A stretch of DNA of 48,084 nucleotides from a marine bacterium B5-7 (GTDB lineage: Bacteria > Pseudomonadota > Gammaproteobacteria > Arenicellales > CAJQKF01). The notes under the pieces were generated by a model. That model made no database searches, was not told the DNA's origin, and saw nothing but the letters and a program-made list of their open reading frames with translations. Both the position numbers and the translations under genes were made by a program. Below are positions 2,334-24,442 of this stretch, piece by piece (positions within the stretch are counted from its first letter, which is position 1; every line of letters begins with the position of its first letter). The DNA is taken from positions 1 through 48,084 of the forward strand of contig BQJD01000027.1 of NCBI GenBank assembly GCA_021604525.1. Direction: 5' to 3'.

Positions 2334-2468
2334 TCTTGTTGTTGCTCCTTTGAACAAGCATATCTGCCTTTAAGTACATAGCGAATATCGCCGCGCTTGC
2401 TCGCTTGTGGATTTGCTTCGGAAAATGTCGTCGTACCAGGACTTGTCTCAAACAGTTTGAAATCGATC

Positions 2469-3512: not shown

Positions 3513-5054
3513 ATGAATAAAACCGTTGTCATGGTGGCTTCCGGAGTAGCCGCTTATATGACATTAACCGCTACCGCCTATGCGGGAGATCTCGTCTGGG
3601 CACGGGATGGAGATATCGATTCTCTCGATCCTCACCGCGCGACATCGACACTATCAAGACAGCTTTGGTATCAAGTGTACGACTCATTGCTTGAATTCGA
3701 TGAACAGGGTCAACCTGTTCCCAATCTGGCGAAGGACTGGACGGTAAGCGATGATGGCACTGAAATTGTCTTCACGCTGCATGAAGGTATCAAGTGTCAC
3801 GATGGCAGTGCATTTGATACCAATGATGTTAAGTGGACAGCCGATCGCGCAATTTTCAGTGACAATCCGAGCCTGACCAAGGCCAGTTGGGGTCCGGTGA
3901 CGGCAGTTGAGAAAGTCGATGATCTCACTGTCAAGTTTACCTTGTCGAAACCGTTTGGTGCATTTGTGCCGTTTATGGCGGATCAGTTTACCTCGATGTT
4001 ATGCGATAGCAACAAGGACCATGATGACTTTGGTGTTGCATCAGCTATCGGTACGGGTCCATGGAAATTCGAAAGCTGGACCAAAGGTTCGCAAATCGTC
4101 CTGACGGCGAATCCTGACTATCAGAACTTTGGCCGACCGGTTGATAACCCGGGCAAGCCATATGCTGATCGCCTGATCGTACGCACCATGCCTGAAGCGC
4201 AAACCCGTGTTGCCGGACTGCAAACCGGTGAATTGCAAATTATCGTGCCGCCTATCCAGGAGGTTGAAGCGCTACAGGCGAATCCTGATGTCGAAATGCA
4301 TATCGCCGAGTCCACCGGGCAAAATATGTTCTTGCAGTTTTCAGCGCATCGTCCGCCTTTTAATGACGCCAAGGCTCGCCAGGCAGTGTCGTATGCCATC
4401 GATAAGGATCTGGCGCTCGATATTGTTTTTGGTGGTCTGGTCGTGAGAGAACGTTGCCCCGTCTCGGTGGGTGTATTCGGACACGATGAAAATTTTTGCG
4501 ACAAGTATGATCAGGACTATGATCCTCAAAAAGCCAGGGAGTTACTCGCAGAACTTGGTTATGGTCCTGATAATCCCATGCAGATCGTAATGGCGACCTG
4601 GACTGGTGACAGTCGTGAGAAAGTCCTGCAGGTTTTCCAGAACCAGTTAAAGCAGGTGGGTATCGAGGCCAGCATCGAAGTCATGGATATCGGTACGCTG
4701 AATGCGCGAGTGACCACTGAGAACAACAAGAAAGAAGGCCCTGGATTTATCAATCTGATGGGTTGGACCTGGTTCGATCCCGACGTCCTGTACTTGTTAT
4801 GGCATTCGCCGGGCGCATACGAAGGCTATACGCACCCGGATCTTGACGAACTGCTCGATCGTACCCGTACGACAGTCGACGCCGATGAACGTCGCGAGGT
4901 TGTTCAGCAAGTGTTTGAGCATTTGCTCGTCAACGCAGTGCATGTGCCCATCTATACACCCGGATGGCTTTGGATGTACGCTGTCACCAGCAAGGCGCCG
5001 GGTTTCACCATCGGCCCATTCAACCGACCTTTGTTTAACGCTGTGAAGTTTTAA
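3513..5054 (+). CDS. Dipeptide-type ABC transporter, periplasmic binding protein (SBP family 5)
   Basis: 513 residues with a Sec signal peptide (hydrophobic core at about 4-20, likely cut after TAYA at 24). The SBP_bac_5 fold follows, including the LDPHRATS start, the CHDGSAFDTNDVKWT motif and the DAKARQAVSYAIDKD motif. A strong AGGAGGAG ribosome site (3500-3507) lies 5 nt before the ATG. The protein captures substrate in the periplasm and delivers it to the following two permeases. It is first in a five-gene transporter run. Family 5 proteins bind peptides, nickel or many non-peptide amino compounds; the neighbouring racemase, deacylase and carbamoylase suggest an N-substituted amino acid or short peptide, but this is inference. 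Confidence 0.92.
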   Translation: MNKTVVMVASGVAAYMTLTATAYAGDLVWARDGDIDSLDPHRATSTLSRQLWYQVYDSLLEFDEQGQPVPNLAKDWTVSDDGTEIVFTLHEGIKCHDGSAFDTNDVKWTADRAIFSDNPSLTKASWGPVTAVEKVDDLTVKFTLSKPFGAFVPFMADQFTSMLCDSNKDHDDFGVASAIGTGPWKFESWTKGSQIVLTANPDYQNFGRPVDNPGKPYADRLIVRTMPEAQTRVAGLQTGELQIIVPPIQEVEALQANPDVEMHIAESTGQNMFLQFSAHRPPFNDAKARQAVSYAIDKDLALDIVFGGLVVRERCPVSVGVFGHDENFCDKYDQDYDPQKARELLAELGYGPDNPMQIVMATWTGDSREKVLQVFQNQLKQVGIEASIEVMDIGTLNARVTTENNKKEGPGFINLMGWTWFDPDVLYLLWHSPGAYEGYTHPDLDELLDRTRTTVDADERREVVQQVFEHLLVNAVHVPIYTPGWLWMYAVTSKAPGFTIGPFNRPLFNAVKF

Positions 5055-5070
5055 CAGGTCATGATGAACC

Positions 5071-5102
5071 GGGTACGTCCTGGCTTGCGCCTGGGCGTAT
5101 CC
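5071..5102 (+). other. Possible intercistronic stem-loop between binding protein and permease
   Basis: GGGTACG (5071-5077) can pair with CGTATCC (5096-5102) with one G-U wobble, inside the 108-nt gap after the binding-protein gene. Stem-loops here often stabilise the upstream mRNA and give the binding protein a higher yield than the permeases. The stem is short and there is no T-run, so it is not a convincing terminator. Confidence 0.25.
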
Positions 5103-5162
5103 GTTATCCGATAGCATGCGAATGTTCGACTCAGTACATCCGATTCAGCGTCACTGCCAGCC

Positions 5163-6086
5163 ATGCTGAACTACCTGATCAGGCGAATATTGTCTGCGGT
5201 CGTCACGATATTCGTTACGACCATCGCTGTTGCCATGTTGATACACCTGGTGCCTGGCGATCCGGTTCAGATCATGTACGCCCAGTCCCAGGGAACAACA
5301 CCCGAGCACCTTGAACAGGTCAGGCAATCGCTTGGCCTCGATCGCCCGCTTGTCGAGCAATACGTCATGTATATGCAGCGGGTGTTGCAGGGTGATCTGG
5401 GCCACACCATACGCGGCGAACAACCGGTACTCGATCTCCTTTTATTGCGTTTACCGAACACATTGCTGTTGACCGGGACTGCGTTATTGATCGCAGTTTC
5501 CATTGGGTTAACGTTTGGCTTCATCGCAGCCTACAAGCGAGGTAGCTGGGTCGATACAAGCCTTATGACCACGGCTATACTGGGTGTATCGATGCCGCAC
5601 TTCTGGCTCGGCCTGATTCTGCTGTTCTTCTTTGCGGTCAAGCTTCAGTGGTTACCCGTAGCGGGTAATAATCTCGAAAATCTGATATTGCCGGCAATTA
5701 CCTTGGGCGTAACCAATGCAGCAATCATCGCTCGCCTCACGCGCTCTTCAATGATTGATGTTTTTGATCAGGACTTCGTCCGTACCGCGCGAGCCAAGGG
5801 ACTGACACGCGCCGCGGTTCTGTACAAGCATGCCTTGCGTGCCGGCCTGGTGCCGATCGTAACCATGATCGGATTACAGTTCACCTACATGATGGGCGGT
5901 GCCATCGTGGTTGAGAACGTATTCGGCTGGAACGGTGTTGGACGCATGGCGATACAGGCTATTTTCCAACGCGACTATCCGCTTATACAGGGTTTCATCC
6001 TGATGTTCGCATTGGTGGTGGTTACCGTATCCATCATTCTGGATATCGTCTACGTGTGGCTCGACCCGCGTATCCGCTATGACTGA
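5163..6086 (+). CDS. Dipeptide-type ABC transporter permease, DppB-like
   Basis: 307 residues. The N-terminal IRRILSAVVTIFVTTIAV transmembrane segment and LVPGDPVQ motif are diagnostic of DppB/OppB, and about six membrane helices are visible. The ATPase-coupling EAA-type loop is ARAKGLTRAAVLYKHALR, near residues 213-230. It forms the inner-membrane channel with the next gene product. Its stop overlaps the next start by 8 nt (6079-6086), so the pair is translated together. No clear Shine-Dalgarno site precedes its ATG. Confidence 0.93.
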   Translation: MLNYLIRRILSAVVTIFVTTIAVAMLIHLVPGDPVQIMYAQSQGTTPEHLEQVRQSLGLDRPLVEQYVMYMQRVLQGDLGHTIRGEQPVLDLLLLRLPNTLLLTGTALLIAVSIGLTFGFIAAYKRGSWVDTSLMTTAILGVSMPHFWLGLILLFFFAVKLQWLPVAGNNLENLILPAITLGVTNAAIIARLTRSSMIDVFDQDFVRTARAKGLTRAAVLYKHALRAGLVPIVTMIGLQFTYMMGGAIVVENVFGWNGVGRMAIQAIFQRDYPLIQGFILMFALVVVTVSIILDIVYVWLDPRIRYD

Positions 6087-7005
6087 TACAAACGTACAGG
6101 CAACCAGCGTAGTTGCTGATCCTGAAATTCGTCCTGTTATCAACGGCGGACAACGATCGGGCCGTGGCCGAACGATACGATTCATGCAAGCGGTATTCGG
6201 TAACCGTGGTGCAGCCATTGGCTTCATTCTTGTTCTGACGCTTGTGCTGGTTGCTATTTTTGCATCCTGGATCGCACCCTTTGACTCGGATCAAATGGGT
6301 GCAGGCAAACGTCTATCGCCGCCCGATGCATCACATTGGTTTGGCACGGATGAGTTCGGTCGTGACATGTTCAGCCGGGTTGTGTTTGGTGCCCGGTTGA
6401 CTATCCAGGTGGGTGTCATCGCAGTCAGTATTTCATTGACGATCGGCATGTTACTGGGATTGATAGGTGGATATGCCGGTGGGTGGCTGGAAAAAATCCT
6501 GATGCGTAGTGTCGATGTTCTGTTTTCATTTACTGAAACGCTAATAGCACTGGCTGCCGTCGCCGTACTTGGACCAAGCCTTACCAATGCCATGATTGCT
6601 GTTGGGATCGCCGCCATTCCATTTTATGCGAGGGTTGCCTATAGCGTCACGCTGGTAGAGCGCAATCGTCCTTACTTCGAAGCGGCAGTCGCTGCCGGCG
6701 CCGGACATATGCGGTTACTTTTCAGGCACCTCCTGCCCAATATCATTCCGCCGTTAATCGTTGTCGCCACCCTTGGTGTATCGGCCGCAGTGCTGGCTGC
6801 TGCCGGTTTGAGTTTTCTTGGGCTGGGCGCACAACCTCCTTCTCCAGAGTGGGGGGCGATGCTTTCTTCCGGCAGGGATTATTTCAATCGAGCACCGTGG
6901 ATCATGTTGTATCCGGGACTTGCAATCATGATTACCGTGCTGGCATTCAATCTGCTGGGCGATGGTATTCGTGAAGCGCTCGATCCTCGTCAGCGTAATA
7001 CCTGA
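6079..7005 (+). CDS. Dipeptide-type ABC transporter permease, DppC-like
   Basis: 308 residues. It has an N-terminal cytoplasmic tail and a first helix followed by WIAPFDSDQ. The periplasmic FGTDEFGRDMFSR motif, the hallmark of DppC/OppC, comes next. The coupling loop is EAAVAAGAGHMRLLFRH, and the GLGAQPPSPEWGAML motif lies before the last helices. It is the second half of the membrane channel with the preceding permease, which it overlaps. The ATPase gene follows after 9 nt, continuing the operon. Confidence 0.93.
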   Translation: MTDTNVQATSVVADPEIRPVINGGQRSGRGRTIRFMQAVFGNRGAAIGFILVLTLVLVAIFASWIAPFDSDQMGAGKRLSPPDASHWFGTDEFGRDMFSRVVFGARLTIQVGVIAVSISLTIGMLLGLIGGYAGGWLEKILMRSVDVLFSFTETLIALAAVAVLGPSLTNAMIAVGIAAIPFYARVAYSVTLVERNRPYFEAAVAAGAGHMRLLFRHLLPNIIPPLIVVATLGVSAAVLAAAGLSFLGLGAQPPSPEWGAMLSSGRDYFNRAPWIMLYPGLAIMITVLAFNLLGDGIREALDPRQRNT

Positions 7006-7014
7006 GCAGTAGCC

Positions 7015-8067
7015 ATGAGTACGACCGCCGCAGAAATGGAAACCTCTGAATCTTCACAGGCAGAAATTACTCCAACACTTCGTGTGTCTTCCTTGCGTGC
7101 CGAGTTTCGTACCGACAGCGGCACCGCGATTGCTGTTGATGGTATGTCTTACGATGTCCATGCAGGAGAAACACTCGCCATCGTTGGTGAGTCGGGTTCG
7201 GGAAAGAGCGTCACTTCGCTGGCGATCATGGGTCTCATACCCAATCCACCCGGTCGCGTCACCGCTGGTGAGGTGTGGTTCGAGAATCATGATCTTCTCA
7301 AGCTGTCTGAACGTGAGATGCAGAAAATTCGCGGCAACAAGGTCTCCATGATTTTTCAGGAGCCAATGACATCGCTAAACCCCGTGCTGTCGATTGAGCG
7401 GCAGATGGTGGAAGGTATTATCGAGCATCTTGATCTCAGCCCGCATGCTGCCCGTCAACATGCCCTCGACATGCTAAAAAGAGTACACATCCCGGATCCG
7501 GAGTCTCGCCTGTCCGAGTTTCCGCATCAGCTCTCCGGCGGAATGTTGCAACGGATCATGATTGCCATGGCGCTGTCATGTAACCCGATGGTTTTACTAG
7601 CCGATGAGCCAACCACCGCACTCGACGTTACGATTCAGGCGCAGATTCTTAATATCATGTGCGATCTTCGGGACGAGTTTGATACGGCAATTGTGCTGAT
7701 CACTCACGACATGGGCGTAGTGGCAGAAATGGCGGATCGGGTAATCATCATGTATGCCGGACGCAAGGTCGAGGAAGGCACAGTCACGAATATATTTCAA
7801 AATCCGCAGCACCCATATACACGCGGCTTGCTTGGTGCCTTGCCCAAGCTGGGCTTTGCCGGACCGGTGGGGTCTCAGACGCTTAACGAGATACCCGGCA
7901 TCGTGCCGGCGCTCACCGACTTGCCGGCGGGTTGCCGCTTTGCGGCACGCTGTAGCTATGCCACCGAACAATGCGTTGCGCAATATCCTCCATTCGAAGA
8001 AAAGACTACGGCGCATTGGGCCGCTTGTTGGGAGTCAGCGAATCTGCCGGAAGGTAATCAGGAATGA
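7015..8067 (+). CDS. Dipeptide-type ABC transporter ATPase, DppD-like
   Basis: 350 residues with a complete ABC nucleotide-binding domain: Walker A GESGSGKS, Q-loop FQEPMTSLNP, signature LSGGMLQR, Walker B LLADEPTTALD and switch His in LITHDMG. The C-terminal oligopeptide-transporter extension carries a Cys-rich GCRFAARC..C pattern typical of this family, which can hold an iron-sulfur cluster in some members. It pairs with the next ATPase. Its stop overlaps the next start by 4 nt (8064-8067). Confidence 0.93.
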   Translation: MSTTAAEMETSESSQAEITPTLRVSSLRAEFRTDSGTAIAVDGMSYDVHAGETLAIVGESGSGKSVTSLAIMGLIPNPPGRVTAGEVWFENHDLLKLSEREMQKIRGNKVSMIFQEPMTSLNPVLSIERQMVEGIIEHLDLSPHAARQHALDMLKRVHIPDPESRLSEFPHQLSGGMLQRIMIAMALSCNPMVLLADEPTTALDVTIQAQILNIMCDLRDEFDTAIVLITHDMGVVAEMADRVIIMYAGRKVEEGTVTNIFQNPQHPYTRGLLGALPKLGFAGPVGSQTLNEIPGIVPALTDLPAGCRFAARCSYATEQCVAQYPPFEEKTTAHWAACWESANLPEGNQE

Positions 8068-9044
8068 ATACACTTGCGTCGGGCCCGCTACTCAAGATCG
8101 ACCGACTATCCAAGCGCTTCCCGGTACGGGGCGGTGTTTTGCGACGTGTCGTTGGAAAGGTCAATGCGGTCGATGATGTATCGTTCGAGATTAATCGCGG
8201 TGAAACACTTGGGTTGGTTGGTGAAAGCGGTTGCGGCAAGTCAACTGTCGGCAAGACCATATTAAAACTGCACGAGCCAAGTGGTGGCGCAATCTGTCTT
8301 GATGGCAAGGATATTTCCCAATACTCTCCAAGACAGATGCGTGGCGTCAGACGTAAGCTGCAGATTGTGTTTCAGGATCCATACTCATCGCTTAATCCGC
8401 GGATGACGGCTGCAGATATTGTCGGTGAACCACTTGCGATTCACGGTTTGGCGCATCGTCGGGATCAACGACAAAGAGTTGCGGAAATGTTCGAGCGGGT
8501 TGGGCTCAGGCCCGATCAGATGGATCGCTTCCCCCATGAATTTTCAGGCGGCCAGCGACAGCGAATCTCAATTGCCCGGGCGCTGGCTGTCGATCCTGAA
8601 ATAATCATTGCTGATGAATCGGTTTCAGCGCTTGATGTATCCATTCAGGCATCGGTGATCAATCTGCTCATCAGGCTGCAACAGCAAACAGGGGTGTCTT
8701 TCTTGTTCATTTCGCATGACATGAGTGTCATCGAACATATCAGCCATCGGGTAGCGGTTATGTATCTCGGCCGTATCGTTGAGATTGCAGAGCGCTCGAA
8801 AGTGTTTGCGCATCCGCTACATCCCTATACTGAAGCACTGCTGTCGGCAGTACCAGTGCCTGATCCGGCAACACGTCGTAAAAAACGCATCCTGCTGTCC
8901 GGGGATGTGCCGTCTCCGATCAAGCCGCCGCCCGGCTGCCACTTTCATACGCGTTGTCCGATTGCCGAAGCGCGTTGTCGGATTGATGTACCAGCTTTAC
9001 GGGAGATCGCCCCCGGCCATATGGCGGCGTGTCACTTGCGCTGA
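8064..9044 (+). CDS. Dipeptide-type ABC transporter ATPase, DppF-like
   Basis: 326 residues: Walker A GESGCGKST, signature FSGGQRQR, Walker B IIADESVSALD (catalytic Glu present, Pro of the usual DEP replaced by Ser) and switch His in FISHDMS. The C-terminal oligopeptide extension GCHFHTRCPIAEARC is present. It completes the two-ATPase dipeptide transporter and is coupled to the preceding ATPase by ATGA overlap. The unknown-function gene starts 14 nt after its stop. Confidence 0.93.
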   Translation: MNTLASGPLLKIDRLSKRFPVRGGVLRRVVGKVNAVDDVSFEINRGETLGLVGESGCGKSTVGKTILKLHEPSGGAICLDGKDISQYSPRQMRGVRRKLQIVFQDPYSSLNPRMTAADIVGEPLAIHGLAHRRDQRQRVAEMFERVGLRPDQMDRFPHEFSGGQRQRISIARALAVDPEIIIADESVSALDVSIQASVINLLIRLQQQTGVSFLFISHDMSVIEHISHRVAVMYLGRIVEIAERSKVFAHPLHPYTEALLSAVPVPDPATRRKKRILLSGDVPSPIKPPPGCHFHTRCPIAEARCRIDVPALREIAPGHMAACHLR

Positions 9045-9058
9045 ATGAGTCATACGTC

Positions 9059-10012
9059 ATGACAATCGGCATTGCCGCTTATGGACCAAGAGCAGGGCTG
9101 GGTGTGTTCTGTGCACTTGAGGCCGTGGAGAAAGTAGCCACGGGATCGATTGGTGGCTACGCTACCTTCGCAACGCTCGATAGCCAAGGCAGGTTATATC
9201 GTGCCGAAACCCAACGCGGCGGTACGACGACATTGTTTGTCGACGGAGAAACCACCGGTGTCAGACCCCCTGACGAAATCGCTCAGGCAACCATGGCCGG
9301 TGTAATGTCGAGCGGGCCAGATCGGCCGACACCGCTTGCCCAGTATTTGCCTGTGGAACCGGGTGCCGGACTGGTTACGGGACATCGCTTGCCGAACGCA
9401 CACGGAGTTAATGATCGTGCGGTGAATTTGCAAGTACTCGATCTGCTGCGCCAGGGTTTTAATGCCCGTGTTGCCGTTAATAAAGTATTCGATGCCGAGC
9501 CTGATGTGGATGCCGGTATTATTGCTGTGGACGTATCAGGCGGTGTATTCAGTCGTAATAGCGATCGGGTTCTACAGCGTCCCGACCTTGGTCATGCACG
9601 ACTCCATGATTCATCAACCGGTGCTGTCATTGAAATATTGCACAACGCTATATCACCGATCGGATCTATCGCTGCACTGGCTGCAGAGATTGGTATGGCG
9701 GCCATGCTTGAGGTGGAGGAAGTCGACGGCGAGATCACCGTTATGGAAAACGTTCCGGTGGTGGCGGGGACGATGAATCGAGTATTGATTGATGATAAGG
9801 GTGTCGCACTTCAGATAGAAACGACAGATTCAAGAATTCTCACGGGTCGACATAATTGCGCTGCCATCTATCTGCGATCACTGGTTGTTCACAACGATAG
9901 TATCCTTGGCGAAACTGTGTTTGAACCCAATGTCGTTGTCGATGGCGGGCGGATTGTCACTTTAAACAATCAAAAACAGATGCGGATTGGTTACCGCAAA
10001 AGCGACCGATAG
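9059..10012 (+). CDS. Conserved protein of unknown function (DUF6963-like)
   Basis: About 317 residues from ATG 9059; an in-frame GTG at 9029 would overlap the ATPase gene and adds a non-conserved leader. It begins MTIGIAAYGPRAGLGVF and is rich in Gly and Ala, with no signal peptide or membrane helix. Segments that look conserved are GSIGGYATFA, RGGTT, GLVTGHRLPN and NAISPIGSIAAL. From memory it resembles DUF6963 proteins found beside dipeptide transporters; I could not verify this. The position between the transporter and an M20 hydrolase suggests a cytoplasmic enzyme or accessory factor of the same pathway. No catalytic motif is recognised and no function is assigned. Confidence 0.7.
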   Translation: MTIGIAAYGPRAGLGVFCALEAVEKVATGSIGGYATFATLDSQGRLYRAETQRGGTTTLFVDGETTGVRPPDEIAQATMAGVMSSGPDRPTPLAQYLPVEPGAGLVTGHRLPNAHGVNDRAVNLQVLDLLRQGFNARVAVNKVFDAEPDVDAGIIAVDVSGGVFSRNSDRVLQRPDLGHARLHDSSTGAVIEILHNAISPIGSIAALAAEIGMAAMLEVEEVDGEITVMENVPVVAGTMNRVLIDDKGVALQIETTDSRILTGRHNCAAIYLRSLVVHNDSILGETVFEPNVVVDGGRIVTLNNQKQMRIGYRKSDR

Positions 10013-10038
10013 TTGAAAATCACGCCAACAAGAAATAG

Positions 10039-11280
10039 ATGAACGTGAACATCGTGCGTATTCACGCACACATCGACGCACTGGCGAACTTCACTGCCAC
10101 ACCTGGCGCCGGCTCGACGCGCTTGAGCTTTTCATCGGAATACCGTGCTGCCTGTGATTACCTGATTAATGTCGCAGAATCCTCTGGTCTGAGTGCACGT
10201 TTTGATGCTATCGGTAATCTGCGTATTCGACTGGACGGGGCTCAATCCAATCTACCGGTAGTCGTGGTTGGATCGCATATAGATACTGTGATCCATGGCG
10301 GAAATTTTGATGGCATCCTTGGTGTGGTCAGCGGTCTTGAAATATTGAGTACGTTGGTTGAGGAGAATATTCAGCCAATACATCCGATAGAGGTCGTGAA
10401 TTTCGTAGAAGAAGAAGGCACGACCTTTCGCTGCCCGCTGACGGGCAGCAAGGCGTTGACCGGTCAGCTTGATGAAGATGCGCTAAAGACGTTAAAGGAT
10501 GACGATGGCAGAACTTTTCATGAGGCGGCGATTGCCTTTGGACTCGACCCAAGCCGTCTTGATGAAGACCGGTTTTACAAAGACACAATCAAGTCGATGC
10601 TTGAGCTTCATATAGAGCAGGGTGCGGTACTGGAGTCTCTCGGTATTCCAGTGGGTATAGTCAACGATATTGCCGGAAGCGAGAACTATCGTATCCGTCT
10701 TTATGGCAGGGCAAACCATGCCGGAACCACGCCGATGTCCCTGCGATTTGACAGTCTCGCCTGCGCCGCTGAATGTATCACCCTGATTGAACGCATTGCC
10801 CGGGATCCGAAGCGTACCAACACGGTTGCGACCGTCGGTCGTATCAGTTGTTTGCCCAACGCGGTAAACGTTATACCGGCTTCAGTGGAATTCAGTATTG
10901 ATGTTCGCGATACGAGCGAAGACCGTATCGAAGACGCGAGCAAAGAAATCCTTCATGGGATAGAAGCAATCGCGCATCAGCGAAACATCCGCTTTGAATG
11001 GGAGTTGACCGCAAAGTCGACGCCAAAACCCATGTCGCCGAGCATGGTCGCGGAATTGACTGTGCTGTCGGAGACTGCGGGTATCGCCAGTCATATAATG
11101 ACCAGTGGTGCGCTACATGATGCAGCAATGATGTCAGACATCGCTCCTACGGCAATGATTTTTGTACCGAGTAAAGACGGCCGTAGCCATACACCGAAAG
11201 AGTCGACCCGATACGAGGATATTGAACACGGCGCTAATCTTTTACTCGCCGCGGTGCTACAACAGGCCGGCTCGAATTGA
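10039..11280 (+). CDS. M20-family N-carbamoyl-L-amino acid hydrolase / allantoate amidohydrolase-like
   Basis: 413 residues, the usual length of the HyuC/AmaB/AllC/beta-ureidopropionase group. Motifs in order are GSHIDTV and GGNFDGILG (metal His/Asp), FVEEEGTTF (Glu pair), LELHIEQGAVLE, GRANHAGTTPM in the dimerisation domain, and a late SHTPKES (metal His). The LHIEQG and AGTTPM signatures separate it from ArgE and peptidase T. It hydrolyses the C-N bond of N-carbamoyl amino acids or related ureides. It is last in the plus-strand operon, 26 nt after the unknown-function gene, and converges on the dehalogenase gene. Substrate within this group is not decided by sequence alone. Confidence 0.88.
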   Translation: MNVNIVRIHAHIDALANFTATPGAGSTRLSFSSEYRAACDYLINVAESSGLSARFDAIGNLRIRLDGAQSNLPVVVVGSHIDTVIHGGNFDGILGVVSGLEILSTLVEENIQPIHPIEVVNFVEEEGTTFRCPLTGSKALTGQLDEDALKTLKDDDGRTFHEAAIAFGLDPSRLDEDRFYKDTIKSMLELHIEQGAVLESLGIPVGIVNDIAGSENYRIRLYGRANHAGTTPMSLRFDSLACAAECITLIERIARDPKRTNTVATVGRISCLPNAVNVIPASVEFSIDVRDTSEDRIEDASKEILHGIEAIAHQRNIRFEWELTAKSTPKPMSPSMVAELTVLSETAGIASHIMTSGALHDAAMMSDIAPTAMIFVPSKDGRSHTPKESTRYEDIEHGANLLLAAVLQQAGSN

Positions 11281-11310: not shown

Positions 11311-14300
11311 TTAAATCTCGATTTCGATAACGCCGTCAGCATCCTGAGCACGTGAGCAACACAGGGTGAGTTTATGTTTGCGCTCAGCGTTGCTGAGAAC
11401 GTAGTCACGATGTTCCACCGAGCCGTACGAATAATTTGCAACACATACGCCACAAATACCGTCCGCGCACTTGGTTTGAATGTGTATGCCGATACGCTCC
11501 AGGGCATCACTCGCTGACTCATCTGCACTGACCACAACTTCACGGTCGCTATCCTTTAGCTTTAAAACGAATGGCGTATTTATATAGTCGCCTTCTTCAG
11601 GGACTGCAAAGAATTCCCGATGCAACGTTTCCACCGGCCAACCGCAGCATGCGGCATGATCAAGGATTGCGGACATATATCGATCCGGGCCACAGGTATA
11701 AAGATGCCAGCCGCTGTGCCAGTTTGGAATATCGCAACAGACATCAAGACGTGAGCCTTCGTCGGAAAAATGAAATCGCACTCGCCGCATGAATGAAGCT
11801 TTACCCAGTTCGTCGACAAATGCCGCAGCCGACCGGTTTGTGGCTGAATAATGTAGTTCGAATTCGGCGTTTATATTGTCAAGTCGGTGTGCCATGGACA
11901 ACATCGGGGTAATGCCGATGCCGCCGGCAAACAACAGTGTAAAAGTCGCGTCCTCTTCCAGCTCGAAATGATTGATCGGACGTGACACGAATACACGCCG
12001 GCCTTCGTTGAACATGCGATGCATCAGCGCCGAACCACCACGTCCGTTTTGCTCGTTCAGTACGGCAGTCAGATAGCGGTCGTTGTCCAGCGGGTTGCCG
12101 GCAAGACTGTACTGACGAAAGAATTCCGGCGCCACTACGACATCGATATGCGCACCTGCTTCGAATGGTGGCAGCGGGCCGCCATCGGCTGCACGAAATT
12201 CATACAGTTTAATATTCTCGGCTGAATCTATAACGCGACTCACACGGGTCGCAATCACCGGTGATTCGCTGGCACTATCATCTCGGACGGTTACGAGTCC
12301 ATCCACCTCGCCACGAGCGAGTCGCGCCCGGTATTCTGTTGGTTCAAGCATCCGCTGGTAGGCTTTGATGCCTTTTTCGCGATCCATTGGAAACGGAAAT
12401 GGATAGGGTGGCGGCGTGAGGTCGGCCGGATATACCGCCAGCGTCTGGTCCTCGTATTTCAAATCGAGATCGAGGTTGAGCTCGCGCTGATTTGTCTGCA
12501 TGGCAGGCACGTAATTGCCGATATCGGTCAGTTCGATATCCCACCACCATTTCTTCACCGGATTGATGCGTCCGCGGCCGATGGCATCGTCAAATTTTGC
12601 CAACCAGCGGGCGGCGCGCGGCACACGCATGGCCAACGCTCGAAACGGTGCTTCACTGAATATGCCTTCCAGATTCCACGGGCAGGTTTTCATGCAGCGA
12701 CCGCACATGCTACCGGCAGTTTGGCCTATTCGGTAGCGGGCGCATTTCTCTGAATCCGACTTCCAGATCTCATAACCGTTGAACATGAGTTTGGGTCCGG
12801 CGGTAATCGCACCCGATGGACATTCACGCGCGCACTTATTGCAGTTCTCGCAAAAATTCTGCAAGCCGAAATCAATCGGACGATCATGGCGCATGGGCAT
12901 GTCGGTGGTGACGACTCCCGATTTCAGACGCGGCCCGAGAAACGGGTTGAGAATCACTTCGCCAATCCGACTCACTTCGCCGAGTCCTGATAGCAGCAAT
13001 AGAGGAGGCTGTAAAATTTCGCCATCGAGTACCGAGTGCACTCTGGCCGAGTAGCCGAGGCTGCGAATATGGTGAGCGACGATACCGCCGATCAGCGACG
13101 TACGAAGATACGCACGCATGCTTTGCGCACCGGAAATCCAGTCATCACCGCTGGCGCCTTCCATGGTCTCGAAACCCTGATCGATCAGAATCGAGATGGC
13201 ATTTTCATGGTAGGGTTTGATGGGGTCGCCGGCGGCGTCGTGTGAATACCATGTCCACGCCGGTGCAGCCGATAAACCAACGGCATCGGCGCCAAGGAAA
13301 TACAGCGAGCCCTTGATGTTATCGGCGTTGCGATCCGGGTCCTTTGCGTCTGCTGATAGGGTGGTACTGACATCACCGTCCTGTCTCAGGATCAATGCAC
13401 CCAGTAATCTGCGCGAACAATAGCCGAGCGGATTTTTCAGAATGTATTTGCCGTTGCGCGCGCCTTCCTGCAGCGCTTTGCCCATATCGCCGAACAAGGC
13501 ACGGGCAAACATGTCGGTACGTTTTGGAACCCGTGGCACGCGAGGCTTGTCGATAAATGTAGTGGGTGCGTCACGCCGCTTGAGTTTTTCGAACGGGTAG
13601 GCACCGTCGCGAAAATGCCGTCGCTTGTATGGTCTATAGTTGAAGGCATTTTTCATTGTACCGATACCACTTATCCATCTTGCATCGGCATTACGGGGCT
13701 TTATCTCATCGAGTGGCTGGTCGACTTCAAGCATAAGTGGCGTAGTGAGGGCTGCCAGTGAGTAGTCTTCGCCAAGATAGGGATTGATCGCACCGGCACT
13801 ATTTTTCCCTTTACCTATAGAGCACAGACCCGCAGCGATCGATAGACGGTCGAGATCGACATCGCTACTGGTTACGGTATGAGCGCGAGCCTCGAATCCC
13901 ATGATGCGAAAATAATTGGCAAGCACCACTGCCGTTTCGGCTGCGCGTACCGCCGACCGCTGATCGATACTTTCCTGAATCCAGTCGCAACCGGGTTCTT
14001 CAGCGCATGGCTGGCGCGGGTGCTCCACCAGAAACACCACGGCGTAACGATGATGATCGATGGGTTCCGGCCGCGCTCCCGCGGCCTCGCGGACATCGGC
14101 CATTACCACGTCAATACCGCTTGCCAGGGTATTGGGTTGCGCGGTTTTCAATTCCTCGGCAAGTGCATCAAGATCCGGGTTGTGAATGGAGGTAGCTAAT
14201 CGAGCATCGGGTGGGATCTCACAGATACCCACCTGACTGGCATCGAAGTAGTAGCCGGCAGCCTTGATATGACGGGCACGTTCTGCCGGGTCGTCGGGAA

Positions 14301-14523
14301 TAACCGAGGGCTGCGAATTAACGGCACCGATGCGTACCGCATCCAGTAATGTAATGAACGTCGCCAGGGCATGGTTAAGCGATAACGGATCACTACCATT
14401 GAATTTCATCCTGCAAGCATCTTTCAGCGATGCCATATCGGGCAGATTCGGTTGCCGTGATAATCGTTCAAGCGGATACGGTCCGAGATGAACCGGTCGG
14501 TGTCGGGTTGAAAATGGCCGCAT
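11311..14523 (-). CDS. Self-sufficient catabolic reductive dehalogenase (BhbA-type B12/Fe-S/flavin fusion)
   Basis: 1070 residues in one frame. Residues ~80-275 and ~395-545 look like two copies of a cobalamin-binding half; the second leads into TTDMPMRHDRPID, typical of RdhA. Two [4Fe-4S] sites follow: Cys558/561/564/568 and Cys594/607/610/614. Residues ~755-975 form a phthalate-dioxygenase-reductase-like flavin/NAD module (RQYSL, FAGGIGITPM, YTCGP). A C-terminal [2Fe-2S] ferredoxin has Cys1019/1024/1027 and Cys1055 or 1056. There is no twin-arginine signal and no rdhB anchor, so it should be cytoplasmic and non-respiratory, like BhbA of Comamonas and NpRdhA of Nitratireductor, which act on brominated 4-hydroxybenzoates. 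NAD(P)H would supply electrons internally. AAGG lies 10 nt before the ATG. Halide removal is inferred; pobA lies 2.4 kb away. Confidence 0.9.
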   Translation of the reverse strand: MRPFSTRHRPVHLGPYPLERLSRQPNLPDMASLKDACRMKFNGSDPLSLNHALATFITLLDAVRIGAVNSQPSVIPDDPAERARHIKAAGYYFDASQVGICEIPPDARLATSIHNPDLDALAEELKTAQPNTLASGIDVVMADVREAAGARPEPIDHHRYAVVFLVEHPRQPCAEEPGCDWIQESIDQRSAVRAAETAVVLANYFRIMGFEARAHTVTSSDVDLDRLSIAAGLCSIGKGKNSAGAINPYLGEDYSLAALTTPLMLEVDQPLDEIKPRNADARWISGIGTMKNAFNYRPYKRRHFRDGAYPFEKLKRRDAPTTFIDKPRVPRVPKRTDMFARALFGDMGKALQEGARNGKYILKNPLGYCSRRLLGALILRQDGDVSTTLSADAKDPDRNADNIKGSLYFLGADAVGLSAAPAWTWYSHDAAGDPIKPYHENAISILIDQGFETMEGASGDDWISGAQSMRAYLRTSLIGGIVAHHIRSLGYSARVHSVLDGEILQPPLLLLSGLGEVSRIGEVILNPFLGPRLKSGVVTTDMPMRHDRPIDFGLQNFCENCNKCARECPSGAITAGPKLMFNGYEIWKSDSEKCARYRIGQTAGSMCGRCMKTCPWNLEGIFSEAPFRALAMRVPRAARWLAKFDDAIGRGRINPVKKWWWDIELTDIGNYVPAMQTNQRELNLDLDLKYEDQTLAVYPADLTPPPYPFPFPMDREKGIKAYQRMLEPTEYRARLARGEVDGLVTVRDDSASESPVIATRVSRVIDSAENIKLYEFRAADGGPLPPFEAGAHIDVVVAPEFFRQYSLAGNPLDNDRYLTAVLNEQNGRGGSALMHRMFNEGRRVFVSRPINHFELEEDATFTLLFAGGIGITPMLSMAHRLDNINAEFELHYSATNRSAAAFVDELGKASFMRRVRFHFSDEGSRLDVCCDIPNWHSGWHLYTCGPDRYMSAILDHAACCGWPVETLHREFFAVPEEGDYINTPFVLKLKDSDREVVVSADESASDALERIGIHIQTKCADGICGVCVANYSYGSVEHRDYVLSNAERKHKLTLCCSRAQDADGVIEIEI

Positions 14524-14649: not shown

Positions 14650-15975
14650 ATGTCGTCGCCGAACGCGAGTCGAAAATCCCTGCTGTACATGAATGATCAA
14701 CCGGGTCGCTATCCGCAGTCCTGGTATGCAGAAACAGCCGACACTCTACCCGAGCAGCCGGCTCTCAAGGGCGAACACAGTTATGACATCGCGGTAATAG
14801 GCGGAGGTTATTCAGGATTATCGTGCGCACTCGATTTGGCCGAACGCGGTTATCGTGTCGCACTTATCGAAGCTCACCGGGTCGGCTGGGGTGCGTCGGG
14901 ACGAAACGGCGGTCAGATCGGAACCGGTCAGCGACTCGAACAGGACGAGCTTGAAGATCTGGTGGGTGACGAGCTTGCCCGAGCCGCGTGGGATATCGCT
15001 GAACAGGCTAAGGCGCGGGTCTATTCGCTCATCGAAAAATTCGACATACAGTGTGATTTGAAACCAGGTGAGTTACATGTCAATCATCGCCCGCGTTTTG
15101 ATCGACATTCAAAATCCTACGCTGAGTTTGTTGCAACATGTTACGGCTACAACAAGATACGTTATGTCGAACCGGATGAAATTTCCGCGATGCTCGGTAC
15201 GCACGATTATTCCGGTGGTACTCTCGACATGGGCGCCGGACATCTGCACCCGTTGAATTATGCTTTGGGGTTGGCCCGCGCGGCGCTTTCTAAAGGGGTC
15301 GATATATTTGAACGTTCGGAAGTTTCCCGCATCGAACCAGGTGACCGGGTTGTTGTACATGGCGAAAGTGGCAAGGTTTCCTGCCGCTACCTGGTGTTGG
15401 CGTGTAACGGTTATCTTGGCGATCTGGAAACCCGTGTTGCCGAGCGGGTCATGCCCATCAACAACTTTATTATCGCCACTGAACCGTTGGGCCAGGAGGT
15501 AGCACGATCACTGATTCGCGATGATGTCTGCGTTGCCGATTCGCGCTTCGTTATCAATTACTATCGTCTTTCTGCAGATCATCGCCTGCTGTTTGGCGGC
15601 GGCGAAAATTATGGATACCGCTTCCCTGCCGATATCAAACAATTCGTTCGCCCGCACATGCTCAAGATTTACCCACAGCTTGCCGATACGCAGATCGACT
15701 ATGGCTGGGGCGGTACGCTCGCCATTACCCGTAAGCGTCTGCCGCATTTCGAGCGATTAGCCGGCAACATTCTATCGATTTCGGGTTACTCGGGATCAGG
15801 GGTCGCACTGGCCACGGGTGCTGGGGCCATAGCCGCCGAAGCCATTGATGGGGTAGCTACCCGTTTCGATGTGATGAACAAACTGCCCACACCAAAATTT
15901 CCCGGTGGTTCCAGATGGCGCTCTCCGCTACTGGTGTTGGCCATGATCTGGTTTTCCTTGCGCGATCGGTTCTAG
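14650..15975 (+). CDS. FAD-dependent amine oxidoreductase, DAO family (PuuB/OrdL-like)
   Basis: 441 residues. An N-terminal WYAET segment precedes the FAD Rossmann motif IAVIGGGYSGLSCALDLAERG at ~48-68. GWGASGRNGGQIGTGQ follows, the hallmark of gamma-glutamylputrescine oxidase-like proteins. The C-terminal FAD contact GYSGSGVALATGAG is present, and the C-terminus is hydrophobic (LLVLAMIWFSL). A GGAG site lies 7 nt before the ATG. The family oxidises secondary or primary amines to an aldehyde or imine plus H2O2. It is divergent from the dehalogenase (126-bp gap), so they may share control, but no chemical link is evident. Its stop and that of the convergent nuclease share one CTAG. Confidence 0.87.
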   Translation: MSSPNASRKSLLYMNDQPGRYPQSWYAETADTLPEQPALKGEHSYDIAVIGGGYSGLSCALDLAERGYRVALIEAHRVGWGASGRNGGQIGTGQRLEQDELEDLVGDELARAAWDIAEQAKARVYSLIEKFDIQCDLKPGELHVNHRPRFDRHSKSYAEFVATCYGYNKIRYVEPDEISAMLGTHDYSGGTLDMGAGHLHPLNYALGLARAALSKGVDIFERSEVSRIEPGDRVVVHGESGKVSCRYLVLACNGYLGDLETRVAERVMPINNFIIATEPLGQEVARSLIRDDVCVADSRFVINYYRLSADHRLLFGGGENYGYRFPADIKQFVRPHMLKIYPQLADTQIDYGWGGTLAITRKRLPHFERLAGNILSISGYSGSGVALATGAGAIAAEAIDGVATRFDVMNKLPTPKFPGGSRWRSPLLVLAMIWFSLRDRF

Positions 15976-16925: not shown

Positions 16926-18152
<1,227 letters not shown>

Positions 18153-18276: not shown

Positions 18277-18588
18277 ATGGCTGCTTTTCTGCTGGCCGAT
18301 GTCGAAGTACCCGATATGCAGGCTTATATTGATTGTGGATACATTGAAAATGTGCCGAAGATCGCTGCTCGATATGGTGGTGTGTATCGTGCTCGCGGTG
18401 GTGACATGGAAGTCCTCGAGGGTGACTGGACGCCAACCCGCATGATCATCATTGAGTTCCCTGACATGGAATCCCTGAAGGCCTTATACGATGATCCTGA
18501 GTATTTGCCGTATCGCGAGATACGGCAGAAACTGACGATATCCAAAATTGTTGCTGTGGACGGATTGTCTACACCTCTGAAAGTATGA
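18277..18588 (+). CDS. DUF1330 family small protein
   Basis: 103 residues of a ferredoxin-like alpha/beta barrel (dimeric barrel) protein. The pattern ADVEVPDMQAYIDCGYIENVPKIAARYGGVYRARGG, then VLEGDWTP and IIIEFPDMESLKALYDDPEY, matches the DUF1330 family. The function of the family is unknown; some relatives are monooxygenase-like or act beside flavin enzymes. Its stop overlaps the FadH-like start by 4 nt (ATGA at 18585-18588), so both are co-translated and it may assist or process a substrate of that reductase. Confidence 0.88.
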   Translation: MAAFLLADVEVPDMQAYIDCGYIENVPKIAARYGGVYRARGGDMEVLEGDWTPTRMIIIEFPDMESLKALYDDPEYLPYREIRQKLTISKIVAVDGLSTPLKV

Positions 18589-20609
18589 GCGACGCCTACC
18601 CGAGATGTTTCGAGCCCCTTGATCTCGGCTTCAGGAGTTTAGCTAATCGCCTGATCATGGGGTCGATGCACACCGGGCTTGAGGAGATCGAAGACGGTTA
18701 TCGCAAGCTGGCTGTGTTCTACGCAGCGCGGGCTGCAGGCGGTGCCGGGTTGATCGTGACCGGCGGCTTGTCGCCCAACCGTGATGGCATGCTGGGTCTC
18801 GGTCCGATGGAACACAGTTTCCCCGACTGTTACCACGAACACCGTCAGATTACCCAGGCAGTGCATGCCGCAGGCGGGGTCATCGCCCTGCAGTTGCTGC
18901 ACGCCGGGCGCTACGCGCGACACGATCATCCGGTGGCACCGTCAGCCATTCAATCACCCATCAATCGACATGCGCCGCGATCCATGACCAAGGACGAGAT
19001 TGCTGGCACCATCGAAGATTTCGCTGCCAGCGCAGTACTGGCGCGCGAGGTGGGGTATGACGGCGTCGAGATCATGGGTTCGGAAGGTTACCTGGTGTCA
19101 CAGTTTTTATGCGAGCGCACCAATCAGCGTGACGATGAGTATGGTGGTAGCTGGGAACATCGCAAACGACTTGCCGTGGATATCGTCCAAGCGGTGCGCA
19201 AGGCAGTCGGTTCCGACTGGATCATCATGTTTCGACTATCGGTGATCGATCTCATCGAGGGCGGCATGACGGCGCAACAGACGATGGACCTGGCGCGCTC
19301 GGTCGAAGCGGCAGGTGCCAACCTGCTCGACTCGGGTATCGGCTGGCACGAGTCACGGGTGCCGACCATCATGGGTGGCGTGCCCCATGGAGCGTTTGCC
19401 CACTACACCCGCCGGGTCAAACAAGCGGTATCGATTCCGGTGGCGGCCTGTAACCGCATCAACCGACCCGATATTGCCGAATCACTGCTGGTCAACGGCG
19501 ATGCCGATCTGATATCCATGGCGCGGCCGTGGCTTGCCGATGCGGACTTTGGCAGCAAGGCAGAGGCAGGGCGGGCAGATGAAATCAATACCTGCATTGC
19601 CTGCAATCAGGCGTGTCTCGATTTTATCTTCAGCGGCCGGGCCGCCAGTTGCCTGGTCAATCCGCTGGCGGCACGTGAGACCGAGATTCCGCTATCGACC
19701 ACAGCCTCGCCGCAACGAATAGCGGTGGTTGGCGCCGGGCCGGGCGGACTCGCCTGCGCCGTCACCCTGGCCGAGCGTGGCCACGAGGTAGAGTTGTTTG
19801 AGACGGCCGAGCGGATCGGTGGACAGTTCAACCTGGCGCGGGTGATTCCAGGCAAGTCCGATTACGCCGAGACCATTCGCTACTTCGAGCGGCGGCTTCT
19901 CTCGTTCGATAATGTGACTATCCATTGCGGCACGCAGGTTGGTGCGACGGAGCTGATCGATGAAGGTTTTGATTCGGTGGTGATTGCCACTGGAGTGCGC
20001 CCGCGTCAGCCATCGATCGAAGGAATCGATCATCCCATGGTCATCGGCTATCAGCAGTTACTTGAAGGCGCCAGTGCCGGGGCGCGAGTGGCGATCATCG
20101 GTGCTGGCGGCATCGGCTTCGATGTCGCTGAATATCTGACCCATCCCAGTGGTGACAATGTGGTTCAAGAGTACGAGCAAGTCTGGGGTATTGATCCATC
20201 GCCGAATAACGCCGGTGGCCTCGTCGACAATTCGAATGTGTACGTGACATCGGCACGCAGCGTCTATCTGTGCCAGCGTAAGCCCGGGCGATTCGGTGCG
20301 ACTCTTGGCAAGTCCACCGGTTGGGCGTTGCGCGAAGGGTTGCGGAAAAAAGGCGTGGAAATGATCGCCGCTGTGGATTATCGCCTGATCGACGATCGCG
20401 GTCTGCATATCGAAGTCGACGGTACTCCACGACTGCTTGAAGTCGATACTATCGTGGTTTGTGCCGGCCAGGATTCTCTGGACGATTTATATGCGCCGTT
20501 GCTGGACGCTGGCATTCAAACCCGGCTGATTGGCGGCGCGCGCAAGGCCTCCGAGCTGGATGCGCGGCAGGCGATAGATGAGGCCGTCCGTTTGGCCGCG
20601 CGTTTATAA
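18585..20609 (+). CDS. fadH: 2,4-dienoyl-CoA reductase-like (FadH / Old Yellow Enzyme with Fe-S and FAD domains)
   Basis: 674 residues; E. coli FadH has 672. An N-terminal FMN TIM barrel carries Tyr169 (SEGYL) and His255 (GIGWHE), matching the catalytic pair of FadH. The [4Fe-4S] ligands are Cys337, 340, 344 and 356 (CIACNQAC...C). A FAD domain with VVGAGPGG (~382-388) and an NAD(P) motif VAIIGAGGIG (~498-507) follow. The enzyme reduces 2,4-dienoyl-CoAs with NADPH in beta-oxidation of unsaturated fatty acids. Being operonic with a DUF1330 gene and divergent from pobA, it could act on a dearomatised or other enoyl intermediate. FadH itself remains the simplest call, since the SEGYLVSQFLCERTNQR stretch is characteristic. 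Confidence 0.85.
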   Translation: MSDAYPRCFEPLDLGFRSLANRLIMGSMHTGLEEIEDGYRKLAVFYAARAAGGAGLIVTGGLSPNRDGMLGLGPMEHSFPDCYHEHRQITQAVHAAGGVIALQLLHAGRYARHDHPVAPSAIQSPINRHAPRSMTKDEIAGTIEDFAASAVLAREVGYDGVEIMGSEGYLVSQFLCERTNQRDDEYGGSWEHRKRLAVDIVQAVRKAVGSDWIIMFRLSVIDLIEGGMTAQQTMDLARSVEAAGANLLDSGIGWHESRVPTIMGGVPHGAFAHYTRRVKQAVSIPVAACNRINRPDIAESLLVNGDADLISMARPWLADADFGSKAEAGRADEINTCIACNQACLDFIFSGRAASCLVNPLAARETEIPLSTTASPQRIAVVGAGPGGLACAVTLAERGHEVELFETAERIGGQFNLARVIPGKSDYAETIRYFERRLLSFDNVTIHCGTQVGATELIDEGFDSVVIATGVRPRQPSIEGIDHPMVIGYQQLLEGASAGARVAIIGAGGIGFDVAEYLTHPSGDNVVQEYEQVWGIDPSPNNAGGLVDNSNVYVTSARSVYLCQRKPGRFGATLGKSTGWALREGLRKKGVEMIAAVDYRLIDDRGLHIEVDGTPRLLEVDTIVVCAGQDSLDDLYAPLLDAGIQTRLIGGARKASELDARQAIDEAVRLAARL

Positions 20610-21253: not shown

Positions 21254-22903
21254 ATGAACATCGACTTTCAAACCGATCCCTCCAAATATCGTCACTGGCG
21301 CGTACGCTACGATGGCCACACCGCGCATCTCATCATGGATGTCGACCCGTCTGCAGGACTGTTCGAAGGCTATGAGTTAAAGCTGAACTCCTATGATCTG
21401 GGTGTTGACATCGAGTTATACGACGCCATGATGCGACTCCGTTTCGAGCACCCCGAGGTCAAGGTGGTGATTCTTGAATCCGCCAACGACAAGGTGTTCT
21501 GTGCTGGCGCCAATATTCGCATGCTGGCCGGCGCATCACATGTTCACAAGGTCAACTTTTGCAAGTTCACCAACGAGACCCGTAACGCCATTGAGGAGTC
21601 CGGCGCCAAGTCCGGACAGAGTTATATTGCTGTTGTATCCGGTGCCTGCGCCGGTGGCGGGTACGAACTCGCCCTGGCCACCGATCACATCATTCTCACC
21701 GATGACAGTACCTCCTCGGTAGCGCTGCCTGAGGTTCCGCTATTGGCGGTTCTGCCGGGTACCGGCGGACTCACCCGGGTTACGGACAAACGCAAGGTGC
21801 GTCGCGACCGAGCCGATATATTCTGTTCCATCGAAGAAGGCGTGAAAGGTCAGAAGGCTGCTGAGTGGCGGCTGGTGGATGAAGCAGTGCCGAACTCGAA
21901 AATCGACGCAGTGGTGGCAGAGCGAATCGAGGAATTCGCGGCTCGATCCGATCGACCATCCGATGCCGGCGGTATTGGGTTCGGTCCACTGAATCGCCGG
22001 GTAAGTGATGACAGTATTGATTACGATACGGTGTCCGTTGCCATCAATCGCGCTGCACGGGTTGCCACTATCACCATCAAGGGGCCGGATGGCCCACCGG
22101 TGGATGATGTCGTATCAATGGTCGAGGCAGGGGATGCATTCTGGCCGCTGAGACTCGCTCGCGAGCTGGATGATGCGATTTTGCACCTGCGGCTCAACGA
22201 GACCGGTATCGTGGCTATGGTTTTCCGCAGCGAGGGTGATGCCGGGCAGGTACTTGCATACGACGCGTTTCTTGAAAGTAACGAGAATCACTGGCTGGCG
22301 CGCGAGATATTGCTGTACTGGGCGCGGGTACTGAAACGCATCGATCAAACCTCCCGCACCCTGGTCACGCTGGTTGAGCCGGGTAGCTGCTTCGCCGGTA
22401 CCTTGGCTGAAATTGTTTTCGCAGCCGATCGTGCCTTCATGGCGGAAGGCGAATTCGAGGACCGTGACGGTGAAGCAGCACTGACGCTGAACACAATGAA
22501 TTTTGGTCGCTATCCCACGGTCAACGCCATCAGCCGGCTTGAATCGCGTTTCTATGGCGAACCGGATTCTGTTGACGTTGCCCGAGAGCATATCGACAAG
22601 TCCCTCGATGCCGTGACTGCCGAGAAGCTTGGCCTCGTCACCGCCGCCTATGACGACATCGACTGGCAGGAGGAAGTGCGAATTTTTCTTGAAGAGCGCG
22701 CAAGCTTTTCACCTGATGCCTTGACCGGCATGGAAGCAAACCTTCGCTGTGTCGGACCTGAAACCATGGAAAGCAAAATTTTCGGCCGCCTCACCGCCTG
22801 GCAGAACTGGATTTTTCAGCGTCCCAATGCCGTTGGAGAAGAAGGCGCACTGCGTCGTTATGGCAGTGGCGTCAAGGCGGCTTACAACACGGAGCGCGTA
22901 TGA
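21254..22903 (+). CDS. boxC: 2,3-epoxybenzoyl-CoA dihydrolase (benzoyl-CoA-dihydrodiol lyase) BoxC
   Basis: 549 residues, the length of BoxC, a double-length crotonase. The first crotonase half (~30-240) shows VFCAGANIRMLAG and SGACAGGGYELALATD, the oxyanion-hole signatures. A second diverged half (~260-500) includes PGSCFAGTLAEIVFAADRAF. It opens the 2,3-epoxide of benzoyl-CoA hydrolytically to give 3,4-dehydroadipyl-CoA semialdehyde and formate. First gene of boxCBA, all on the plus strand. The semialdehyde dehydrogenase (BoxD) and benzoate-CoA ligase expected for the pathway are not in the window. Confidence 0.95.
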   Translation: MNIDFQTDPSKYRHWRVRYDGHTAHLIMDVDPSAGLFEGYELKLNSYDLGVDIELYDAMMRLRFEHPEVKVVILESANDKVFCAGANIRMLAGASHVHKVNFCKFTNETRNAIEESGAKSGQSYIAVVSGACAGGGYELALATDHIILTDDSTSSVALPEVPLLAVLPGTGGLTRVTDKRKVRRDRADIFCSIEEGVKGQKAAEWRLVDEAVPNSKIDAVVAERIEEFAARSDRPSDAGGIGFGPLNRRVSDDSIDYDTVSVAINRAARVATITIKGPDGPPVDDVVSMVEAGDAFWPLRLARELDDAILHLRLNETGIVAMVFRSEGDAGQVLAYDAFLESNENHWLAREILLYWARVLKRIDQTSRTLVTLVEPGSCFAGTLAEIVFAADRAFMAEGEFEDRDGEAALTLNTMNFGRYPTVNAISRLESRFYGEPDSVDVAREHIDKSLDAVTAEKLGLVTAAYDDIDWQEEVRIFLEERASFSPDALTGMEANLRCVGPETMESKIFGRLTAWQNWIFQRPNAVGEEGALRRYGSGVKAAYNTERV

Positions 22904-22942
22904 CCGACGCGCTTGTTTAGTTGTCAAACGAATCAGATAACG

Positions 22943-22955
22943 CGGACACTGTCCG
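22943..22955. other. Perfect palindrome in the boxC-boxB gap
   Basis: CGGACA, C, TGTCCG: a 6-bp perfect inverted repeat around one base in the 84-nt gap between boxC and boxB. A one-base loop is too tight for an RNA hairpin without opening the inner pairs. It could act as an mRNA-processing structure or a protein site, or be chance. Confidence 0.25.
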
Positions 22956-22987
22956 TCATCAAAACATACGATACAAGGTTATAAATC

Positions 22988-24433: not shown

Positions 24434-24442
24434 GCACAGACA

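Follow-up and report, generated by a model that had tools for sequence, protein, structure and literature searches.

The window analysed here, i.e., the whole stretch of 48,084 nt (positions 1 to 48,084) of contig BQJD01000027.1 from the marine bacterium B5-7 (GCA_021604525.1), contains at 11311-14523 a gene, rdhA, which very probably codes for a catabolic reductive dehalogenase that is cytoplasmic, cobalamin-dependent and equipped with its own reductase. The latter is of the phthalate dioxygenase reductase (PDR) type. The gene and the parts of its protein are arranged as follows:

11311..14523, minus strand: rdhA, predicted coding sequence of a self-sufficient (PDR-fused) catabolic reductive dehalogenase, 1070 amino acids (frame, profiles, relatives, model)
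13708..14292, minus strand: residues 78-272, N-terminal RdhA-like repeat, putatively vestigial (second, weaker TIGR02486 stretch, scoring 46.2 bits and E 7.5e-12 when taken alone)
14056..14196, minus strand: residues 110-156, left unpaired with NpRdhA by phmmer between two aligned stretches
12586..13209, minus strand: residues 439-646, functional RdhA core and Fe-S region (TIGR02486, 154.1 bits, E 1.1e-44)
13108..13110, minus strand: Tyr472, equivalent to NpRdhA Tyr426, the proposed proton donor, in SMRAY (gapless alignment)
12922..12924, minus strand: Lys534, equivalent to NpRdhA Lys488 (alignment)
12820..12852, minus strand: first [4Fe-4S] motif, Cys558/561/564/568 (sequence, Pfam, alignment)
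12682..12744, minus strand: second [4Fe-4S] motif, Cys594/607/610/614, containing Arg598, equivalent to NpRdhA Arg552 (sequence, alignment)
11314..12261, minus strand: residues 755-1070, PDR-type flavin / NAD(P) / [2Fe-2S] module (profiles, phmmer, model)

Sequence, active site and structural model

The single frame of 1070 residues reported at these positions in a first-pass annotation is real, but it lies on the minus strand, the plus strand of 11311-14523 being interrupted by many stops. Its ATG start is in register with the starts of seven fused relatives and of NpRdhA in the alignment. Over the whole protein, the NCBIfam profile TIGR02486 (reductive dehalogenase) reaches 198.6 bits (cut-off 160.35, E 2.1e-58), and NpRdhA is the top sequence match among solved structures (phmmer, E 6e-166). 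Over residues ~760-1067, two P450 proteins (6kbh, 6laa) come out on top among the solved structures, together with phthalate dioxygenase reductase (2PIA, E 3.3e-49). The matches to TIGR02486, NpRdhA and 2PIA are all far beyond chance, and Pfam likewise matched 4Fe-4S and 2Fe-2S domains on the protein.

A respiratory RdhA would be marked by a twin-arginine translocation (Tat) signal, an adjoining RdhB gene and the lack of a reductase fusion, none of which applies here. Residues 1-60 contain no RR pair and hence no Tat signal, and the gaps to the neighbouring genes (30 and 126 bases) are too short for an RdhB gene, so that none adjoins rdhA, the search for RdhB being confined to this locus. At this locus, the absence of signal and anchor thus agrees with what had been assumed at first.

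The two [4Fe-4S] motifs lie where the first-pass annotation had placed them (Cys558-568 and Cys594-614), and the flavin/NAD reductase and [2Fe-2S] ferredoxin it had proposed for the same chain are found in the PDR-type module, the latter with Cys1019/1024/1027/1055. All twelve cluster cysteines are invariant in an alignment of 81 rows, i.e., the present protein and the best 80 of at least 564 relatives. The PDR module also carries RQYS at 803-806 and GGIGIT at 867-872, which presumably have their usual roles in a flavin / NAD(P) module. Whereas the single-chain combination of RdhA and reductase had been recognized correctly, two parts had been overlooked: the N-terminal RdhA copy and the stretch 110-156, which is absent from NpRdhA. 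Residues 78-272 may be taken as the vestigial copy described in PMC10463259 for catabolic RdhAs. According to the same source, PDR-fused forms carry an insert folding over the active site, and residues 110-156 are perhaps, by analogy, this insert.

Residues 461-666 align without gaps to NpRdhA 415-620 (phmmer, offset +46), such that S422, M423, Y426, K488 and R552 of NpRdhA correspond to S468, M469, Y472, K534 and R598; in addition, F291 aligns with F339. These six are the NpRdhA active-site residues listed in PMC10463259, and each of them is kept in 81 of 81 rows. The catalytic Tyr, Lys and Arg, whose alignment had been proposed as a check, are accordingly all present. Tyr426 of the present protein, in the motif WTWY, had been suggested as the counterpart of the catalytic tyrosine on account of its number; it is found in 81 of 81 rows too, but it is Tyr472 that aligns with NpRdhA Tyr426, and the candidate was rejected.

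An AlphaFold2 model was computed on the 81-row alignment without cofactors (mean predicted local distance difference test score 83.9, predicted template modelling score 0.87). In a Foldseek search, chains of NpRdhA occupy ranks 1 to 14, with template modelling scores, normalised by target, of 0.90-0.92. In VIA-align, the best NpRdhA chain superimposes at 2.3 A over 672 residues (Z 39.4, 41% identity). The overlay that had been proposed as a check, carried out here without cobalamin, therefore reveals the same fold, and together with the TIGR02486 score it bears out the B12-type RdhA core. The duplicated N-terminal core is seen in the model as well, which follows NpRdhA from residue 1. A lack of the corrinoid pocket, named beforehand as a finding that would speak against the assignment, is not indicated: the NpRdhA fold is present with its key catalytic residues, and since the model holds no cofactor, the pocket itself is deduced from the overlay. 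Architecture, fold, key catalytic residues and cofactor-ligand cysteines are established by sequence and model together. For 2PIA, the superposition covers 306 residues (Z 29.9) at a root-mean-square deviation of 12.5 A, whereas reductases matching around residues 755-975 fit the model at 2.1-3.2 A. We attribute the former value to a different arrangement of the domains in the model; the placement of the PDR parts, mutually and relative to the core, is accordingly tentative.

Relatives, distribution and gene surroundings

The genome collection yields 593 pattern-matched stretches, of which at least 564 code for a relative (E 1e-3 or better); not every one of these relatives is necessarily fused. 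The best 80 are matched over nearly the whole query at 54 to 63% identity and belong, by their titles, mostly to Alphaproteobacteria and in few cases to Gamma- and Betaproteobacteria. The full-length fused relatives aligned are 49-63% identical to the present protein. Of nine records of the plasmid collection that match at E 1e-60, eight span 80% or more of the query (highest identity 57.7%), and BhbA on plasmid pBHB matches over its full length at 48.8% identity.

Within its own order, matches at E 1e-60 or better occur in 8 of 109 genomes, counting the own genome, in which rdhA is single copy. Two further matches are full length (G002, G071), one is divided between two contigs as two pieces (G025), and the remaining four (G078, G080, G081, G108) are found only within residues 151-730. 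Neither of the two listed genomes of the same genus has a match, nor has the single listed genome of the same family, one of these three being only 76% complete. In a tree built by a quick method (63 of 89 rows, midpoint root, support by the Shimodaira-Hasegawa-like approximate likelihood ratio test only), the present protein falls into a group of 11 rows (support 82) that also contains Pseudovibrio, Pelagibius, Denitrobaculum and a plasmid protein of Aminobacter, whereas the order-mates L009 and L010 are placed in other branches, separated by supports of 100 and 99. Pseudovibrio, Pelagibius and others near it in the tree are genera often living on marine hosts. The patchy spread in the order and the tree placement suggest that rdhA may have moved horizontally.

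In five Pseudovibrio loci (L022, L024, L025, L028, L055), the fused rdhA is situated within ~3 kb of a contig end, which may hint at adjoining repeats or mobile DNA. The own genome furthermore contains a separate frame (L005, G000:C35:3816-4712) that is 37% identical to residues 761-1060 of the PDR module.

The genes around rdhA in the window are the following:

19-3350, opposite strand to the next set: M20 peptidase, enolase-family gene and RpiR regulator (profiles)
3513-11280, plus strand, lower-coordinate side: peptide-type ATP-binding cassette transporter, DUF6963/DUF7259 protein and M20 hydantoinase/carbamoylase-type amidase in a row
14650-15975, higher-coordinate side: flavin adenine dinucleotide (FAD) oxidoreductase
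between the FAD oxidoreductase and pobA: S1/P1 nuclease (gene order)
16926..18107, minus strand: pobA, 4-hydroxybenzoate 3-monooxygenase (TIGR02360, 673.5 bits, cut-off 538.7)
18585-20609, beyond pobA: old yellow enzyme (OYE)-like reductase, followed in the gene list by a DUF309 gene
21254-25630, plus strand: boxC, boxB and boxA, aerobic benzoyl-CoA epoxidation genes, all three over cut-off

The gene pobA is thus present 2.4 kb from rdhA, and the stretch from pobA to boxA, with the OYE-like, DUF309 and box genes, looks like an aromatic-catabolism island. Neighbours were surveyed by tblastn (60% coverage asked) at 90 loci with an rdhA match covering 60% of the query; at five of these loci the flanks measure at most 1.5 kb, and at many others a contig end is close. 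In the fetched flanks, pobA was matched at 5 loci, ligB at 2, ligA at 2 and ligK at 3, while boxABC and the OYE-like gene were matched at none of the 90. At L033 and L076, the pobA match starts 32 and 90 bases past the end of the rdhA match on the same strand, and both Nitratireductor sp. OM-1 and Comamonas 7D-2 have matches to pobA and ligAB no more than 4 kb from their fused rdhA. Clustering groups the FAD oxidoreductase at 14650-15975 with genes from 16 other loci; as these show 29-32% identity and lie at a distance of ~1-3 kb, it was not counted as linked to rdhA. Altogether, little conserved gene neighbourhood was found.

Elsewhere in the genome (G000:C42), ligA and ligK, both over equivalog NCBIfam cut-offs, and ligB, over a subfamily cut-off, are present in one gene run, which also holds a Gfo/Idh/MocA oxidoreductase and two amidohydrolases. 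By position alone we would call these three ligC-, ligI- and ligJ-like, and the run fits protocatechuate 4,5-cleavage. PcaH (protocatechuate 3,4-dioxygenase beta) was not found in the genome search, which likewise pointed to LigAB.

Concerning cobalamin, a riboswitch precedes btuB, cobU and cobT on one contig (G000:C17), and cobS is situated on another (C31); all four genes for uptake and salvage are over their NCBIfam cut-offs, btuB barely (602.0 vs 599.7). CobN, in contrast, was not found in the genome, the anaerobic B12 route not having been searched. B12 is thus probably imported and salvaged.

Proposed function and comparison with known systems

Sequence, model and relatives all support the cytoplasmic, self-sufficient catabolic RdhA of the BhbA/NpRdhA type that the first-pass annotation had proposed. 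By analogy with characterized members, hydride from NAD(P)H would pass to the flavin of the PDR module (flavin mononucleotide, FMN, in JtRdhA), from where single electrons would travel via the [2Fe-2S] ferredoxin domain and the two [4Fe-4S] clusters to base-off cob(II)alamin. The substrate, an ortho-halogenated phenol, would be bound with its halogen on the cobalt and its phenolic oxygen held by Ser468, Lys534 and Arg598, and Tyr472 would donate a proton during breakage of the C-halogen bond. The product 4-hydroxybenzoate could then be converted by the PobA of the window to protocatechuate, and this be used for carbon through meta-cleavage by LigAB. As the most likely substrates, again by analogy, we consider 4-hydroxybenzoates carrying bromine or iodine, and similar phenols. 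The choice between NADPH and NADH and the role in vivo are likewise inferred, and the NAD(P)H-driven, oxygen-tolerant character expected at first is extrapolated from JtRdhA.

Several observations weigh against this assignment. The cut-off of TIGR02486 is reached only by summing stretches, the top single stretch (154.1 bits) staying below 160.35, and Pfam PF13486 (Dehalogenase) does not match the protein at E <= 0.1. In a search over the own genome, PF13486 did not match at rdhA either, but this search is uninformative because none of 14 controls matched. The model contains no cofactors, and its confidence is low at residues 455-459 and 571-590. Of the pocket residues of NpRdhA given in PMC7565698, five are changed (F290 to M338, F310 to Y360, P311 to I361, A419 to G465, N452 to V498), and K307 aligns with N357, next to a gap. 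Most of the substitutions are usual in relatives (M338 in 73, Y360 in 78, V498 in 79 and N357 in 26 of 81 rows), whereas I361 occurs in the present protein alone. At position 465, Gly is restricted to the present protein and all 6 Pseudovibrio rows, the other rows possessing Val (64), Cys (7) or Ala (3). As judged from the sequences, these differences leave the dehalogenase assignment unchanged, but they leave the substrate open. The absence of CobN belongs here as well. The link to pobA is loose: it was not matched in the fetched flanks of 85 of the 90 loci (some of these flanks being 1.5 kb or shorter), pobA and rdhA are not adjacent in the window, and the lig genes are on another contig. 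Finally, a small upstream gene common to 13 other loci (annotated MarR in L017) has no counterpart here.

The natural substrate of the same enzyme might instead be a halophenol in free form or a natural product bearing halogen, e.g., a brominated phenol of sponges or algae, with a product bypassing PobA, which we regard as a tangible though minority possibility. The marine-host genera next to it in the tree, among them Pseudovibrio and Pelagibius, would be in line with such a substrate. JtRdhA accepts several ortho-bromo and -iodo phenols (PMC10463259), and Gly465 is shared with the Pseudovibrio rows at the position equivalent to Ala419 of NpRdhA, which borders the second-halogen pocket there (PMC7565698), as against Val in most of the alignment. 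The nearby pobA and the genome's single run of ligA, ligB and ligK, however, favour the route through PobA. A further step, considered rather improbable here, would be that Gly465, by opening the second-halogen pocket, together with Ile361, unique in the 81 rows, and the lack of adjoining MarR-like and lig genes, marks a sub-branch that could take bulkier or different halophenols, e.g., brominated products of marine hosts or even chlorinated ones, which JtRdhA does not reduce. PMC10463259 leaves open whether PDR-fused enzymes are confined to brominated substrates, and the difference at residue 465 offers a simple comparison for this point.

Doubts about the kind of protein itself carry far less weight. 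A decayed or inactive relic, for which its single copy and patchy occurrence in the order might speak, is very unlikely, as no stop interrupts the 1070 codons, the cysteines of the clusters are intact along with the six listed active-site residues, and the protein differs at only 14 positions from residues conserved in 93% or more of the other 80 rows. An enzyme like epoxyqueuosine reductase (QueG), already raised as an alternative at the outset, is hardly credible at all: although QueG and RdhA are both class III cobalamin enzymes (PMC10463259) and the QueG profile TIGR00276 touches residues 501-617, it scores 21.7 bits against a cut-off of 200, a far poorer fit than that of TIGR02486, and the model overlays NpRdhA. 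A separate weak relative on another contig (G000:C53) may be the QueG of this genome.

The plasmid and genome relatives listed include no Jhaorihella, yet the organization of the present reductive dehalogenase closely resembles that described in PMC10463259 for JtRdhA of Jhaorihella thermophila (WP_104007082), with which, going by that description, it shares the single chain of RdhA and PDR, the absence of a Tat signal, the duplicated core, two [4Fe-4S] and one [2Fe-2S] cluster and the Y/K/R active site. JtRdhA is reported there to be NADPH-driven with FMN, to keep 1:1 coupling also in air, and to remove Br and I, but not Cl; its activity is thus known, whereas the present protein is known from sequence and model. 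Since this fused example has been purified and kinetically studied (PMC10463259) and full-length relatives are many, the rarity implied by the first-pass annotation, which held few such enzymes to have been studied, was overstated. BhbA (WP_015585978.1, plasmid pBHB of Comamonas sp. 7D-2) has the same full-length architecture at 49% identity, with matches to pobA and ligAB no more than 4 kb from its gene; it differs in being plasmid-borne, in its tree branch, and in a Ser at the position of Gly465. It belongs to a bromoxynil-degradation cluster (PMC10463259). NpRdhA of Nitratireductor pacificus (4RAS, 6ZXU) shares the RdhA fold and the six listed active-site residues at about 40% identity, but possesses neither the fused PDR module nor the 110-156 stretch, and several other pocket residues differ. 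The reductase 2PIA resembles residues 755-1070, the C-terminal [2Fe-2S] part included, but is free-standing. Respiratory PceA (4UR0 and others), which is Tat-exported and membrane-linked, has the same core fold at 20-24% identity (Foldseek); according to PMC10463259, it lacks both the PDR module and the duplicated core. A debrominase is also described for Roseobacter, with bhbA homologues widely distributed in that clade (PMC13101508). The kind of enzyme is therefore already published, and the present protein constitutes a real, well-supported further member, i.e., a divergent addition (at most 63% identity to the best 80 relatives) to a family useful for aerobic bromo- and iodophenol removal.

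Other features of the window

The window contains no tRNA genes, and a scan for promoters and terminators gave no more than shuffles give. Apart from the genes described above, one further pair was recognized by its profiles:

33015-37006, minus strand: MTTB-family methyltransferase beside a fused FAD oxidoreductase/GCV_T protein

This pair is suggestive of demethylation of a methylated amine. Within the MTTB gene, at 33410-33509, Rfam reports the pyrrolysine insertion element PYLIS_3 (41.8 bits, gathering 38); as the MTTB frame is open under table 11, this hit may match mttB sequence only.

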